DNA from: Pyrinomonadaceae bacterium
Lineage (GTDB): Bacteria > Acidobacteriota > Blastocatellia > Pyrinomonadales > Pyrinomonadaceae
Reading direction: 5' to 3'
Assembly (NCBI GenBank): GCA_036277115.1
Contig: DASUNM010000027.1
Span: 372,001-436,000 of the forward strand
DNA length: 64,000 nucleotides
Positions 30,065 to 47,727 of this stretch are shown here, one piece after another. Under the pieces are notes generated by a model, which was not told where the DNA came from, made no database searches, and worked only from the letters and a program-made list of their open reading frames with translations. Numbering within the stretch: position 1 is the first letter of the stretch; every line of letters starts with the position of its first letter. A program made the position numbers and the translations under genes.

Positions 30065-30123
30065 GCAGTGAGCAGCGAGCAGTGAGCAGTGAGGTCAGTA
30101 CCACCTGCGGTAGCGGGTGGGTT
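30063..30123 (+). repeat. Heptamer tandem plus R2 repeat
   Basis: GAGCAGT/C is tandemly repeated four times (30063-30093) directly after the gyrB stop. It is followed by one copy of R2, GTCAGTACCACCTGCGGTAG plus GCGGGTGGGT (30094-30123), the family found in frame inside two genes further right. Confidence 0.75.
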
Positions 30124-30889: not shown

Positions 30890-31258
30890 GCGACATATCC
30901 CACAGGGACGAAATGGCTGACAATTCAACCAAGCTGCGAAGCAGCGGATATGTCTAAGCCCAAGGCGAGGCCTTGCGAGCCTTGGGTTACCGACAAGAGT
31001 CTTTGAGGGAGCCGCGGAGCGGTGACCAATCAGTTCAAAGGGTCAGTCGCGTCAATTCAACCTGGAATGATGACTTTGAACTCGAAACGGTATGTCGCCC
31101 GCTTCGCAGGCACCGCTGATCTATAACGGGCATGGTTCCCAACGCTCGCAAGACCTCGCCTTGGGCTTAGCTAAGACCGCTGCTACGCAGCTCGACGAGT
31201 TTGTTCGCTCAACCCGTCTTTTGGGCAAAGCCAAGAATATTATTAGGAAGAGGGAAAG
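30890..31258. repeat. Intergenic region with an inverted pair of R4 elements
   Basis: R4 copy A (about 30932-30992) and inverted copy B (about 31137-31200) share AGCTGCGAAGCAGCG (copy B with GTAGC), then TAAGCCCAAGGCGAGG and a TTGCGAGC..TTGGG end. They flank roughly 145 bp with no open gene. GGAAGAGGGAAAG just before 31259 is the ribosome-binding region of the next gene. Confidence 0.75.
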
Positions 31259-32071: not shown

Positions 32072-32431
32072 TCAGGAGGTGCCGCATGCATCTCAGCTCA
32101 CCGCGACATTTTAATTCTGCCAGTCCGCGGAGCGGACGCCAGCATAAAGCCTGGGGCGCAAGCCCCAGGATCGCGTCAAGCAAAAGCAAGCAAGCCCGCG
32201 AAGCGGGCGGCAGCCGAATCATCTGGACGAATGTTAAGCGTTACGGCTATCACCCGCTTCGCGGGTTCAATTGATATTTGTGGTACTTGACCTGGGGCTC
32301 ACGCCCCAGGCTCTATAATGACGTCCGCTCCGCGGACTAAAAGAGGTGAGCCAGCGGTCGCGTCACCGCGCTAGAAGCGGCGGTGTGAATGAGACGCTTC
32401 CTCGAAGAATTACGTTAGCGCGACGACTGTC
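32072..32431. repeat. Intergenic region with nested inverted repeats
   Basis: GTCCGCGGAGCGGAC plus CCTGGGGCGCAAGCCCCAGG (32122-32169) recurs inverted at 32291-32338. A CCCGCGAAGCGGG / CCCGCTTCGCGGG pair lies inside. No gene is supported. The convergent ends of the flanking genes make a bidirectional terminator role possible. Confidence 0.65.
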
Positions 32432-34661: not shown

Positions 34662-35735
34662 TCAACGCCCATTGCCCTGAGTGAGGCCCATCACATACAG
34701 CTCCCACTTCGGTTTGAAAGTTCGCATGTCCGGATTGCCCAGCACGCGGGCGAGCGTTTGATAACCGCTGGGGTCGGTCTTCTGATGCGCATAAAACTCT
34801 CGATAGAACTTCTGGAGCAGACCTTTCTGCTGCAGGTAATAGAGCAGGTAACGCGACTGTGCGTAGTGCGAGCCGCTCTCAAAGTTGTAGAACTCCGGCT
34901 CACTCATACCCATCAGTTTTCGGAACGCTGGGACGCGGCCGGCTTTGATGTCAGCCTGCAAACCAGGTAGTCGCCAGTTGGTGAAACCGTGGATGCGGCC
35001 ATTGACTTCGCCGCTCTGCTCGTACAGTGAACCGAGGCCTTCATTCAACCAGGGCGGACAGTTGGGAAAATTCGCTTCGACAAACGGATGGACGATTTCA
35101 TGGACGAGGGTGCCGCCGCCGGTCGAGATGTTCATCACGAGGGCTTTGTGAGTCTTCGAGTAATAGCCATACGGCGTATCCGGCTTATACCCGAACAGCA
35201 GTTTCGCATTCCGTTCGTAAGACGCCGCATCCTTGAACAGCCAGATATCAATAATCCCTTTCGGATCTTTCGAAAAGTATTCCTGCTTCAGTTTGTCGAC
35301 TGCCCACTTCACCGTGCGGATTGAATGCTGCTTCACATCGTCCGCCGGCTCATCTCCGATTACGACAAACGGCCTCTGCACCACAATCGTGAAGTCTTCG
35401 GAAGGAAGCTTTTTCTTGAGCTGCTCGATGTGGGTTCCAAACTCCGCGTCAGTGAAGCCCGTAGCAGTTGGTTCTTCCGCGGGTATGGCCTGACCAGTTG
35501 GAGTGAGGTCAGAACCGCCTGCGTCAGCGGGCGGGTCGTTGTCAGTACCGAGAGCGGCCCGGGGTCCCCGCGCGGGCATCCCGCGTGGAGTGGTGGATGC
35601 GACCGGATCAGGTGGCGACCGCAAATGCGAGTCAGTACCACCTGCGGTAGCGGGTGGGTTTGCGTTGCCGTAAACGCCGGATACGAACGCCCCAGCGACT
35701 AAGAAAAGAAAAGCTAGCTTTATCCGATTGGCCAT
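34662..35735 (-). CDS. Exported gluzincin-like metallopeptidase with repeat-derived N-terminal linker
   Basis: The frame opens at 35786, but ATG 35735 starts a signal peptide (MANRIKLAFLFLVAGAFVSG). About 60 low-complexity residues follow ([20 protein letters not shown] and similar), encoded by in-frame R2 repeats and a linking palindrome. The mature domain has TLVHEIVHPFVE (HExxH, near residue 210) and PWLNEGLGSLYE, whose Glu would be the third zinc ligand, as in DUF1570/gluzincin proteins. It is probably a periplasmic or extracellular zinc peptidase; a non-peptidase role cannot be excluded. Confidence 0.8.
   Translation of the reverse strand: MANRIKLAFLFLVAGAFVSGVYGNANPPATAGGTDSHLRSPPDPVASTTPRGMPARGPRAALGTDNDPPADAGGSDLTPTGQAIPAEEPTATGFTDAEFGTHIEQLKKKLPSEDFTIVVQRPFVVIGDEPADDVKQHSIRTVKWAVDKLKQEYFSKDPKGIIDIWLFKDAASYERNAKLLFGYKPDTPYGYYSKTHKALVMNISTGGGTLVHEIVHPFVEANFPNCPPWLNEGLGSLYEQSGEVNGRIHGFTNWRLPGLQADIKAGRVPAFRKLMGMSEPEFYNFESGSHYAQSRYLLYYLQQKGLLQKFYREFYAHQKTDPSGYQTLARVLGNPDMRTFKPKWELYVMGLTQGNGR
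35508..35660 (-). repeat. Two in-frame R2 repeats inside the gluzincin gene
   Basis: R2 copies at 35508-35536 (GTCAGAACCGCCTGCGTCAG start) and 35631-35660 (GTCAGTACCACCTGCGGTAG start) flank a GCGCGGGGACCCC-type palindrome. The whole segment is translated without stops in the peptidase frame. Confidence 0.8.
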
Positions 35736-42064: not shown

Positions 42065-43276
42065 CTATGAATGCTCCCGCACTACTTCACGAGATGACTT
42101 GTCGTGGCGAATGCCGAGCAGTCTTGGGTGGCGGAGTTTGTTGTATTTAGTCCACTGAATGAAGCCGACTTGGACGACGATTTTTGGACGGACCCAGTGA
42201 GCGCGGAGGCGCGGTAGGCCGACGGCTTTGGTGAACGGGGGTTTCGGAATCTCAAGCTTGTCGAGTTGGGCGCGGAGATTGAGGAGCAGTTCAGTGTTAA
42301 AGCCGGTGCCGATCTTGCCCGCAAAGACAAAGTCGGCTGGCGCATCCGCGGACGCAGACCCACCCGCTACCGCAGGTGGTACTGACTTGGGTGTTAGGTT
42401 GTCGCTGGATCCGGTCGCTAAGCTCCGCACCCTCACCCGACCTAAAGCTGCGCTCCCTCTCCCCGGCCCTCTCCCAAGGGGAGAGGGAGTGGAACCAGAG
42501 GGATTGGAGATCGAGGCCGATCCGCCCACTGACGCAGGCGGTTCTGACTTCGAGGCGTATTCGTAATAACCTACCAACAGAGCGCCGAGGCCGACGCGTT
42601 TTCCTTGTGGATCGGTGAAGCCGCCGACGACAAATTCCTGGGACAGCTCGACCTTCATCTTTAACCAGTTGGGCGAGCGGCGTGACTCGTAAATCGAACC
42701 GCGGCGTTTGGCGATCACACCCTCCCAACCTTCACGCTGCGCACGTTCCCAAGGCTGTTCATCGTTGTCAGCTGAATCCTTCAAAGCAGTGACTCGATGG
42801 AGTGGCGGCTTAAGCGGCAGCTTCTTCAACAGCGTCTGGCGTTCTTCGAGCGGTAGCTTCATCGTGTCTCGGCCGTCGAGCCAAAGGATGTCGAACACGT
42901 GATAAGCAGCACGCGAGGACGCGATTTTCTCGCCCTCTCCGCACGCGGAGAGGGGGTTGGGGGGCGACGAGCCATGTGCGTCAACCCCACCCCTTCCCCC
43001 TCCCCGCTCGCGGGGAGGGGAATACGTTACTGCGTGCCAATCGATCTCGCCGTCGAGGATTAAATCGCGATGCGGAAGTTGGGCGATTGCGCGCGCCAGG
43101 GCGGGAATGTTTTGGGGCAGACGATTGCGTGAGAACAACTCGACCTTCGCACCACGCTTGTAGGCGAGCAGGCGGATGCCATCGAACTTTCGTTCAAAGA
43201 TCCATTCCGGTCCGGTGAAGCGCTCCTGGGTGAGCGTGGCAGCCATCGGTTGGATCCATTCGGGAAATTTTGGCAT
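42065..43276 (-). CDS. ATP-dependent DNA ligase with repeat-encoded insertions
   Basis: This 403-residue protein has motif I FERKFDGIR (nucleophile Lys30), motif III LDGEID (74-79), motif IIIa YHVFDILWLDG, motif IV GVIAKR (187-191) and motif V WLKMK (204-208). An OB-fold with FVVGGFTDPQGKR and FVFAGKIGTGF follows. Two stretches, about 84-118 and 243-315, are translated palindromic repeats (for example PPNPLSACGEGEK, PSPLGRGPGRG, PPAVAGGSAS) in loops between motifs. Without them the length of about 300 fits LigC/LigD-type ligases of end-joining or repair. No polymerase or Ku gene is adjacent. Confidence 0.9.
   Translation of the reverse strand: MPKFPEWIQPMAATLTQERFTGPEWIFERKFDGIRLLAYKRGAKVELFSRNRLPQNIPALARAIAQLPHRDLILDGEIDWHAVTYSPPRERGGGRGGVDAHGSSPPNPLSACGEGEKIASSRAAYHVFDILWLDGRDTMKLPLEERQTLLKKLPLKPPLHRVTALKDSADNDEQPWERAQREGWEGVIAKRRGSIYESRRSPNWLKMKVELSQEFVVGGFTDPQGKRVGLGALLVGYYEYASKSEPPASVGGSASISNPSGSTPSPLGRGPGRGSAALGRVRVRSLATGSSDNLTPKSVPPAVAGGSASADAPADFVFAGKIGTGFNTELLLNLRAQLDKLEIPKPPFTKAVGLPRLRAHWVRPKIVVQVGFIQWTKYNKLRHPRLLGIRHDKSSREVVREHS
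42358..42548 (-). repeat. R2-R1-R2 cassette in frame in the ligase OB-fold
   Basis: R2 at 42358-42386, R1 units at about 42427-42489 and R2 at 42519-42548 form a roughly 190-bp cassette read through as about 72 residues of the ligase. Confidence 0.82.
42930..43022 (-). repeat. R1-type palindromes in frame in the ligase adenylation domain
   Basis: CCCTCTCCGCACGCGGAGAGGG and CCTCCCCGCTCGCGGGGAGG lie between ligase motifs III and IIIa. They are translated as about 35 residues without a stop. Confidence 0.8.
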
Positions 43277-43827
43277 TAAGGGATTTTACAGTGAGCGGAA
43301 TCTCAGTTTCGAGTTCAGAGTTTCAAGTTTCGAGTTAAGAAACAGAAGCAGAAATAGGAAGCCAGTGAACATCGGGGGTAAACCGCCCTTCCTAACCTTG
43401 AGGCATTTCAGGTTGCGGTTTTCTGTCGCCGGCTAAAGCCGGCTTTGAAATTCATCCTAATCTGCGATCCCAGCGCTGAAGCGCTGGGCTACTTTCAAAC
43501 GTCCGCTTCGCGGACGCAATCCAAAGCGCCGTCTAGAGCACCCCACGCGAGATGCTCGCGCGGGGACCCCGCGAGCCGGCGCACTCCACATTTGCTGACG
43601 CAAACCCTCACCCCGGCCCTCTCCCAGCGGGAGAGGGAGAAGAATACAAAGCGCCGTCGAGCCGGCGCACTCCAAAAGCAGTGCAGGATGCGCGCGATCC
43701 GCTAAGCTTCGCACCCTCACCCCGCCTCTCCCAGGGGGAGAGGGAGAAGAAGAATTCAAAGCGCCGTTGAGCCGGCGCTCCAAATGCAGGCGAGGACGCC
43801 TGCGTACCCAGGCGGCGCCAAGACCGA
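43277..43827. repeat. Repeat cluster (R5, R3, R1) without genes
   Basis: R5 lies at 43298-43343 (inverted relative to 34589-34632). R3 units (CCCAGCGCTGAAGCGCTGGG, GTCCGCTTCGCGGAC, AAAGCGCCGTCnAGCCGGCGCACTCC-like) are at about 43425-43600, 43645-43690 and 43757-43790. R1 copies are at 43606-43642 and 43711-43751. Open frames here are translated repeats and are not accepted as genes. Confidence 0.75.
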
Positions 43828-44631: not shown

Positions 44632-45044
44632 GGATTTGCGATTGGGTGTTTGAGGATGAGCGACAGCGAAGGCAGTAAAAGGAGTAGGACCGATTTTTTC
44701 ATGTTCGTGATTGTAGGTGCGGTCAGCAGTGGGGATAAAGCCGAGCAGGCAGAACTCGGTTTCGAGTTATTAAATAGAAGGTGAGAGCCAACCACAAAGC
44801 GGTCTGTCGCCGGCTAAATCCGGCTCTGAAATTTGTTGGGGGACGCTGATCCCGGCGCTGAAGCGCTGGGCTACTGTCAAAAGTCCGCTTCGCGGACGCA
44901 ATCCAAAGCGCCGTCGAGCCGGCGCACTCCAAATGCGCGCAGGATGCGCGCGACCCGCTAAGCTTCGCACCCTCACCTCACCTCTCCCAGAGGGAGAGGA
45001 ACTAATCAGGGATGCAGGCGCTCCCGCAAGTCGCGCACTCCAAA
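44632..45044. repeat. Spacer with displaced signal-peptide frame and R3/R1 repeats
   Basis: Signal-peptide codons for the SUMF1-like gene lie on the minus strand at about 44648-44701. R3 units (CGGCTAAATCCGGCTCTGAA, CGCTGAAGCGCTGGGCTAC, GTCCGCTTCGCGGAC) lie at about 44808-44945 and R1 at 44966-45001. No other gene is seen. Confidence 0.65.
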
Positions 45045-47198: not shown

Positions 47199-47727
47199 GG
47201 CCGTTAATCGTAGTTCGTGAAGCGTGATTTTGAAAGCCGTTGTTCTTTCAACGAACGAGCTGCGAAGCAGCGCGGGTAGTTAAGCCCAAGGCGAGGCTCT
47301 GCGAGCCTTGGGTACCCGGTGCACACAAATCGTTTGGAGCGGCGGAGCCGCGACCGATAAATGCGCTGAGGGGTCAGGCTTTGAAGCTGCAATGCCGACC
47401 CTCCTGGGCCGTGCTCTAAAAAATCTCTACTCGCCCGCTAAAGCGGGCTCTAAGATTAATCTACACCTCGACCCCAGCGCTGAAGCGCTGAGCTACGGAA
47501 AAGCAGCGCAGGGGCACGAGAGCACCGCGAAGCTTCGCACCCTCACCACCGCCCTCACCCAGAGGGAGAGGGAGAAGAATCCAAGCGCCGTCGCCGTCCC
47601 GGACTAAACGGGACTCTGCCGGCGCACTCCAAATGCGGGCAGGATGCCCGCGCTTCCAGGGAACAACTTCCTTACGGATGTTGTCAGAAGGTCGAGTACT
47701 TATCCTTATTCTCCGGCCGGAGGTCTG
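47199..47727. repeat. Spacer with R4 copy C, R3 and R1 repeats
   Basis: R4 copy C is at about 47257-47317 (GAGCTGCGAAGCAGCG, then TTAAGCCCAAGGCGAGG). R3 units are at about 47430-47505 and 47580-47660, and R1 is at 47537-47575. No gene is accepted. GGAGG at 47719-47723 is the ribosome-binding site of the next gene. Confidence 0.75.

Follow-up and report, generated by a model that had tools for sequence, protein, structure and literature searches.

The ligase gene and its inserts

The window analysed here is a stretch of 64,000 nucleotides (G000:C27:372001-436000) from a genome of 4.85 Mb that is assembled in 30 contigs and is 100% complete with 0.12% contamination. One of its genes encodes an ATP-dependent DNA ligase of the LigD-ligase-domain/LigC type, an assignment that draws on Pfam and on homologues (Table 1). 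The Pfam domains DNA_ligase_A_M and DNA_ligase_A_C are both recognised in the protein, which has a nucleotidyltransferase domain with the KxDG motif and an OB-fold C-terminal domain. By sequence, its closest relatives of solved structure are the ligase domain of Mycobacterium tuberculosis LigD (Rv0938; entry 1vs0) and two related ATP-dependent ligase entries. An earlier note on this DNA had described the gene as expanded by in-frame palindromic repeats and had proposed a comparison with orthologues that lack them. Ten such homologues were found and aligned (G044 and L151-L159, of which L159 is partial and spans the second site only). They come from Acidobacteria gp5/gp6, Pyrinomonadaceae and one Acidimicrobiia MAG, and outside the two insert sites the alignment is essentially gap-free, with a core identity of 71-75% (67% for the most distant homologue). 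Judged from these ligase relatives and from the Acido-Lenti-1 RNAs of the window, the host is probably a soil-type acidobacterium (Acidobacteriota, near Pyrinomonadaceae/Blastocatellia).

Table 1. Ligase gene, its inserts and associated repeats in the window
Feature	Position	Strand	Remarks
Spacer R2 unit	30094..30122 (core at 30101)	+	Downstream of a type II topoisomerase (gyrB-like) gene
Second repeat-bearing ORF, 374 aa	34662..35786	-	Two R2 and one R3 in N-terminal region
R2 palindrome in 374-aa ORF	35515..35534	+	Opposite-strand reading PPADAGGSD
R3-type unit starting GTCAGTACCGAGAGCGG	35541..35630 (right end approximate)	+	Between the two R2 units of the 374-aa ORF
R2 palindrome in 374-aa ORF	35638..35657	+	Opposite-strand reading PPATAGGTD
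ATP-dependent DNA ligase	42065..43276	-	403 aa, two repeat-derived inserts
Insert 2	42335..42559	-	75 aa against 2 in homologues; OB-fold beta-hairpin turn; composite R2-R1a-R2
R2 unit GTCAGTA+CCACCTGCGGTAGCGGGTGG	42360..42386	-	Insert 2; exact 27-nt consensus; read as SVPPAVAGG
R1a palindrome CCTCTCCCAAGGGGAGAGG	42468..42486	.	Nested between the R2 pair of insert 2; read as TPSPLGRGPGRG
R2 unit GTCAGAA+CCGCCTGCGTCAGTGGGCGG	42522..42548	-	Insert 2; read as SEPPASVGG
Insert 1	42920..43030	-	37 aa (V83-A119), motif III (LDGE) to motif IIIa (YHVFD); R1b; missing from insert-free homologues
R1b palindrome CCTCTCCGCACGCGGAGAGG	42934..42953	.	Within insert 1
R1b palindrome CCCTCCCCGCTCGCGGGGAGGG	42998..43019	.	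Within insert 1
Two spacer R1a copies	43604..43756	+	Adjoining the ligase gene
Long-form spacer R1a copy, 61 nt	44939..44999	+	93% to 43683-43743

At the first site the ligase reads ILDGEIDW, 37 extra residues and SRAAYHVFD, where homologues have ILDGEITW-PANRLAYHVFD and similar sequences; the insert consists of the twin GC-rich palindrome R1b, that is, CCCTCCCCGCTCGCGGGGAGGG and CCTCTCCGCACGCGGAGAGG in window orientation with starts 64 bp apart. At the second site 75 residues stand between GALLVGYYE and DFVFAGKIGTG, where homologues have GALLVGYYD-KD-DFVFAGKIGTG and 1vs0 has a two-residue turn. The two R2 units of insert 2 are in direct orientation. Among the peptide stretches that belong to the ligase inserts are GEIDWHAVTYSPPR and a second one of 24 residues. 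The sizes of about 35 and 72 residues given in the earlier note are close to those measured against the insert-free homologues, namely 37-38 residues (111-114 nt) for insert 1 and a net 73 residues (219 nt) for insert 2, both multiples of three in nucleotides.

Every ligase motif, KxDG (motif I), LDGE, YHVFDIxW, EGVIAKR, WLKMK and RHPRLLG, is present in conserved columns, in agreement with the earlier statement that the catalytic motifs are intact, and the 110 insert codons include no stop. Against each relative, dN of the ligase core is about 0.2 and dS at least 1.5, the latter being saturated, and the gene's own branch measures 0.19 compared with 0.13-0.27 for intact orthologues when near-identical pairs are left out. 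Judged from such sequence comparisons, the ligase core is under purifying selection. The two refuting cases named in the earlier note, relatives that have these residues without the repeats and signs that the ligase is a pseudogene, were both sought, and neither was found. An AlphaFold model of the ligase, built from nine sequences, is weak (mean pLDDT 42) and places both inserts as lowest-confidence coil between beta strands; disorder of the insert loops is only suggested by it. An Rfam scan gave no match in the ligase.

Repeat families

Repeats were counted by genome-wide pattern searches and in 100 stretches fetched around repeats (546 kb including the window), with the same pattern reversed as the control. 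The core of R2 has 72 exact copies in the genome compared with 0 for its reversed control, and R2 was found in 39 of 60 relatives, in up to 257 copies. The R2 unit consists of the tag GTCAGWA followed by an 8-nt stem, a 4-nt loop and a second 8-nt stem. Requiring at least 6 of 8 Watson-Crick stem pairs, 121 tagged units were found in the 546 kb, as opposed to 0 of 827 for the backwards tag. Palindrome matches that lack the tag (e.g. in L106, and in L076 at 6430) were set aside as chance. Stem positions 1-2 are C-G pairs, whereas positions 3 and 4 co-vary (A-T or G-C at the former; C-G, G-C or T-A at the latter), the loop is mostly GGTA or GTNA, and the tail begins with GT or TT. Twenty-four inverted pairs, all with tags outward, have centres 37-95 bp apart, and no other orientation of R2 pairs within 120 bp occurs in the 546 kb. 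The GTCAGWA tag is common to R2 and to variants with other stems (CCGGGAGC...GCGACCGG and CCATCCGC...GCGGATGG), and is also borne by R4 (GTGTCAGAAGCCCGC...), a repeat of the sister species with 12-37 exact copies in G001-G004 and G006, 5 in G005 and 2 in the genome under study.

The R1a core occurs at 42 exact places in the genome compared with 1 for the reversed control. R1a was amplified within the genus, since the strict core is present in 7 of 7 genomes of the same genus (g1) and almost absent from the 53 other relatives. Counts of exact cores are uneven among the congeners, with 238 in G005 and 10-101 in the others; with next to none outside the genus, R1a has gone through a recent burst limited to it. 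The R1b twin palindrome was also seen in fetched stretches L112, L091 (twice), L071, L080, L117 and L128.

Within the window, the earlier statement that R1 and R2 DNA also lies in spacers agrees with R1a copies at seven spacer sites (679, 819, 34430, 43618, 43725, 44981 and 53703) and with the R2 core at 30101. The second repeat-bearing ORF has no Pfam match, and its R2 copies at 35515 and 35638 are additional to those in the earlier note.

Repeats in other genes and the reading frames used

The coding context of each repeat was assessed with a hexamer model on both flanks and with Pfam, and orthologues were compared for six genes including the ligase. Given that the search relied on patterns and on the 546 kb of stretches, the count of intragenic repeats is a lower bound. 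R2 is in frame in at least 12 genes. Besides the ligase (twice) and the 374-aa ORF, these are genes for MutS (a nearly complete inverted pair), MutS2, Der/EngA (between the two GTPase domains), aconitase, ETF-QO (twice, one copy degenerate), a xanthine-dehydrogenase-like molybdoprotein, two SAM methyltransferases, AMMECR1 and a surface protein. In one of the methyltransferases (L082), some 80 residues encoded by R2 and R1a, the combination also seen in the ligase, interrupt the Pfam match. Repeats of the R1 type are carried by genes for an AddA-like helicase-nuclease, an intein-like segment, a GH57-like enzyme and a multihaem cytochrome. Four of the targets (ligase, MutS, MutS2 and the AddA-like helicase-nuclease) are repair genes. 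The earlier note had asked whether insert lengths are multiples of three in other genes, and they are in MutS, Der, aconitase, ETF-QO, the xanthine-dehydrogenase-like gene and others.

Four or five of the six frames of an R2 unit are free of stops, and the open frames that are disfavoured encode hydrophobic peptides or peptides with Cys or Trp. The two frames that read PPxxxGG are used by 15 of 16 intragenic R2 units (P about 1e-4) and in 11 of 12 R2 genes (P 0.0012 by gene), probabilities that are descriptive since this pair of frames was picked after the data had been seen. Only 16 of the approximately 121 tagged units lie inside genes, a minority even though coding DNA dominates a bacterial genome. 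Because of this scarcity and the restriction to two frames, removal of harmful insertions fits the R2 data better than directed insertion does. The earlier suggestion that the repeats can enter coding DNA without breaking the frame is better taken as an effect of survival, with nearly all intragenic units in two harmless frames; insertions that were out of frame or brought in a stop were presumably lost.

Linkers in sister species

Congeners differ in the state of individual linkers, which may be empty, hold the same insert or hold a different palindrome, and this is clearest for aconitase and ETF-QO. In ETF-QO the site directly before LQINFSNC is empty in G002, G005, G037 and G039, and it is filled in G001 (one R2), G004 (an R2-like unit), G006 (another palindrome) and the genome under study (two R2). 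At the aconitase linker before PMNIVEKI, the genome under study has R2 and G001 has R2 plus half an R4, whereas G003 and G004 carry an R4 dimer, G002 carries half an R4 and G006 a different repeat-like segment (PPREQDARGPQAGMPAL). G005 has the longer linker too but no R2 in it, and the linker is bare in G007 and G037-G039. The linkers of MutS and Der have R2 in the genome under study and in none of the relatives compared, and the MutS linker of G001 and G005 has the R1-like peptide PHPNPLPxGEG. Some of the filled and empty states are shared by descent, and not all are independent events. The nearest relatives are about 85% identical and their linkers cannot be aligned base by base, so target-site duplications are not discernible.

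An R2-derived peptide is present in the xanthine-dehydrogenase-like gene of five g1 species and absent from that of G039. It has undergone an in-frame loss of 6 nt in G001 and has diverged in G004. A repeat insertion can therefore outlast speciation while remaining part of the coding sequence.

The MutS gene of G005 (L175) was found as two halves in different frames that flank the segment with the R1-like peptide. This break reflects an insertion that damaged the gene, or else a misassembly of the G005 MAG.

Relationship to known repeats

Translated palindromes are already known as intragenic REPs and as the Rickettsia palindromic elements (RPEs). What is new here is the lineage in which they occur, the family of repeats, their nesting and their recurrence at the same linkers. 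RPEs (Ogata et al. 2000, 2002) are palindromes found in frame in unrelated genes, as summarised in PMC10969869 and PMC3733652. As the RPEs do in these summaries, the present repeats form dispersed palindromes in frame in unrelated metabolic and repair genes, have the same DNA in spacers, lie as peptides at tolerated positions and comprise several families per genome; their insertions in conserved genes are stop-free and have insert-free orthologues. The likeness to RPEs drawn in the earlier note is therefore apt, with in-frame palindromes in an intact ligase, spacer copies and insert-free relatives, although such cases had already been described outside Rickettsia (PMC3733652). Set against the RPEs of the same summaries, which are about 150 nt long, R2 is only about 29 nt (R1 is longer), the units are stacked or nested in the ligase, lineage and sequences differ, and different repeat families occupy one linker among sister species. 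ERIC and the QMITE of Coxiella are likewise small non-autonomous repeats fused in frame with genes, and by their descriptions are set apart as longer MITE-type elements of other lineages (PMC2229807, PMC10969869).

Intragenic GTAG and CGTC REPs were surveyed by Di Nocera et al. 2013 (PMC3733652), who found repair genes among the targets, including a DNA ligase gene of Opitutus terrae, and REPs at about the same site in recB of two Xanthomonas species, and who named linkers and loops as a likely reason for the neutrality of intragenic REPs. R2 resembles both super-families in its 8-bp stem, 4-nt loop, unpaired tag at one end, predominance of inverted dimers and occurrence in repair genes, but its tag GTCAGWA is neither GTAG nor CGTC (PMC3733652). 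From GTAG REPs and REPINs it further differs in that it flanks none of 28 Y1 transposase loci examined, while sharing inverted dimers with a short spacer. From CGTC REPs it differs in having no CGTC (or TGTC/CCTC) tag adjoining the stem, no A/T pairs at positions 1-2 and no CCA tail, yet it agrees with them in a stem of 8-9 bp, a loop of 4-5 nt, predominant dimers and the lack of a dedicated transposase (PMC3733652). Acidobacteria are not among the phyla for which that survey lists GTAG or CGTC repeats (PMC3733652). No report of translated palindromic repeats in Acidobacteriota was found in the open-licence literature, which is not proof of absence.

REPINs are mobilised by RAYT transposases. 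The tag-outward inverted pairs of R2, about 37-95 bp apart from centre to centre, are like those of REPINs, but no R2 lies near any of the 28 Y1 transposase (Y1_Tnp) loci examined. The Y1 transposases examined in this genome are flanked by a different repeat of the GTAG type; at the RAYT-like genes in L037, L143 and L144 it is the inverted repeat GTAGCCGGTGGTCGGAGTCCGCGGAGACCACCGG, unrelated to R2. The identification of R2 as a RAYT-mobilised GTAG REP, at odds with both the tag and the Y1 transposase loci, was rejected for now. The mobility of R1 and R2 that the earlier note had proposed is suggested by the near-identical dispersed copies and by sites that are empty in one species and filled in another; no transposition was observed, however, and no mobilising enzyme was found.

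Origin of the inserts

The reading favoured here, with a probability of roughly 0.9, is that a working ligase gene took up several non-autonomous palindromic (REP/MITE-like) elements in frame and kept them as loops. R1a, R1b and R2 would be families amplified in the genus or class, multiplying through some transposase-like enzyme, with most surviving copies in spacers. A few copies would be tolerated in genes at turns and linkers, given an open frame and a flexible peptide. In the ligase, R1b would have landed in frame at a surface turn between motifs III and IIIa, and R2, R1a and R2 beside or inside one another in the OB-fold hairpin. Stop-free readings rich in Pro, Gly and Ala, suited to linkers, would have survived selection, and the insert peptides are presumably translated and retained in the protein as disordered loops.

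Retention for a function, whether a useful linker length, an mRNA hairpin that acts on translation or regulation of repair genes, is unlikely. It would suit the several DNA repair genes among the targets (ligase, MutS, MutS2 and AddA-like), as in PMC3733652, and the persistence of R2-derived peptides in the xanthine-dehydrogenase-like gene of five species; yet the targets are functionally mixed, the same genes have empty sites in sister species, and the xanthine-dehydrogenase-like peptide has been free to drift, as the G001 loss and the G004 divergence indicate. It is also very improbable that the ligase is a decaying pseudogene that is still open by chance. Two large inserts might be expected of such a gene, and no ligase of this type with a similar level of identity was found in the sister species, which may make it an accessory enzyme, but intact motifs, dN/dS well below 1, a branch no longer than those of intact orthologues and insert codons free of stops all speak for a working gene.

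Mis-joins at repeats could in principle have placed repeat DNA in genes, as repeats are classic points of mis-assembly and several comparison genomes are in hundreds of contigs. Little credence is given to this, however, for a complete genome of 30 contigs with 0.12% contamination: mis-joins would neither preserve the frame in a dozen genes nor choose the same two frames, and sister species whose genomes were assembled independently have related repeats at one and the same linker. Equally little is given to removal of the inserted RNA or peptide before the protein works, by splicing, translational bypassing or intein-like excision. The palindromes are able to fold in mRNA, but the inserts have no intein or intron motifs, they are stop-free and in frame, which excision would not need, and RPE peptides in Rickettsia are reported as expressed in PMC3733652, which cites earlier work. 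Hardly any weight falls on ordinary linker expansion by slippage or local duplication that merely resembles repeats. Both inserts do lie at tolerant turns and are rich in Pro and Gly; against this, their DNA is near-identical to dispersed palindromes, one ligase R2 matches the 27-nt consensus exactly, and co-variation in the stem (the A-T/G-C swap at position 3) is not a product of slippage.

With the uptake of palindromic elements by a working gene as the preferred reading, protein-coding palindromic repeats are not peculiar to intracellular Rickettsia or a few Proteobacteria, and they shape proteins, including essential ones (Der, MutS and aconitase), in a bacterial lineage that is probably free-living. 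Among close relatives a given linker may be empty, filled or filled with another repeat, which makes the process observable. Linker variants would allow tests of whether an insertion has a cost or changes activity, and of selection on the peptide as the cause of the surviving frames. A broader proposal, offered tentatively and at slightly less than even odds, is that interdomain linkers and hairpin turns in this genus are recurrent sites of landing and exchange for unrelated palindromic families, with linker turnover driven by the GTCAG-tagged REP family and some mobiliser. If it is true, the length and composition of linkers in essential enzymes would turn over mainly by insertion, retention and replacement of repeats on the time-scale of species.

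Other repeat-like elements

An FAD-monooxygenase-like ORF (L091:3-2009) has a Hint (intein-like) segment with a DUF559 nuclease domain, and this segment in turn carries an R1b insert, a case of a mobile element within a mobile element within a gene. The linkers of Der (L069) and of G006 aconitase (L163) have a further repeat-like peptide, QAGMPALP / REQDARGPQAGMPAL, which suggests yet another translated repeat family. In the window, the small RNA family Acido-Lenti-1 (RF01687) has matches at 32291-32338 and 43469-43516, both in spacers. The second match lies inside a repeat cluster beside the ligase and recurs at 44848-44918, which suggests that this 'sRNA' family could be a dispersed palindromic repeat in its own right. 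Other spacer palindromes of the window that are outside R1 and R2 are those at 43422-43452 and 44803-44833 (GCCGGCTAAAGCCGGC type) and at 30932-30992 and 47258-47318 (AGCTGCGAAGCAGC...CCCAAGGCGAGGC type).
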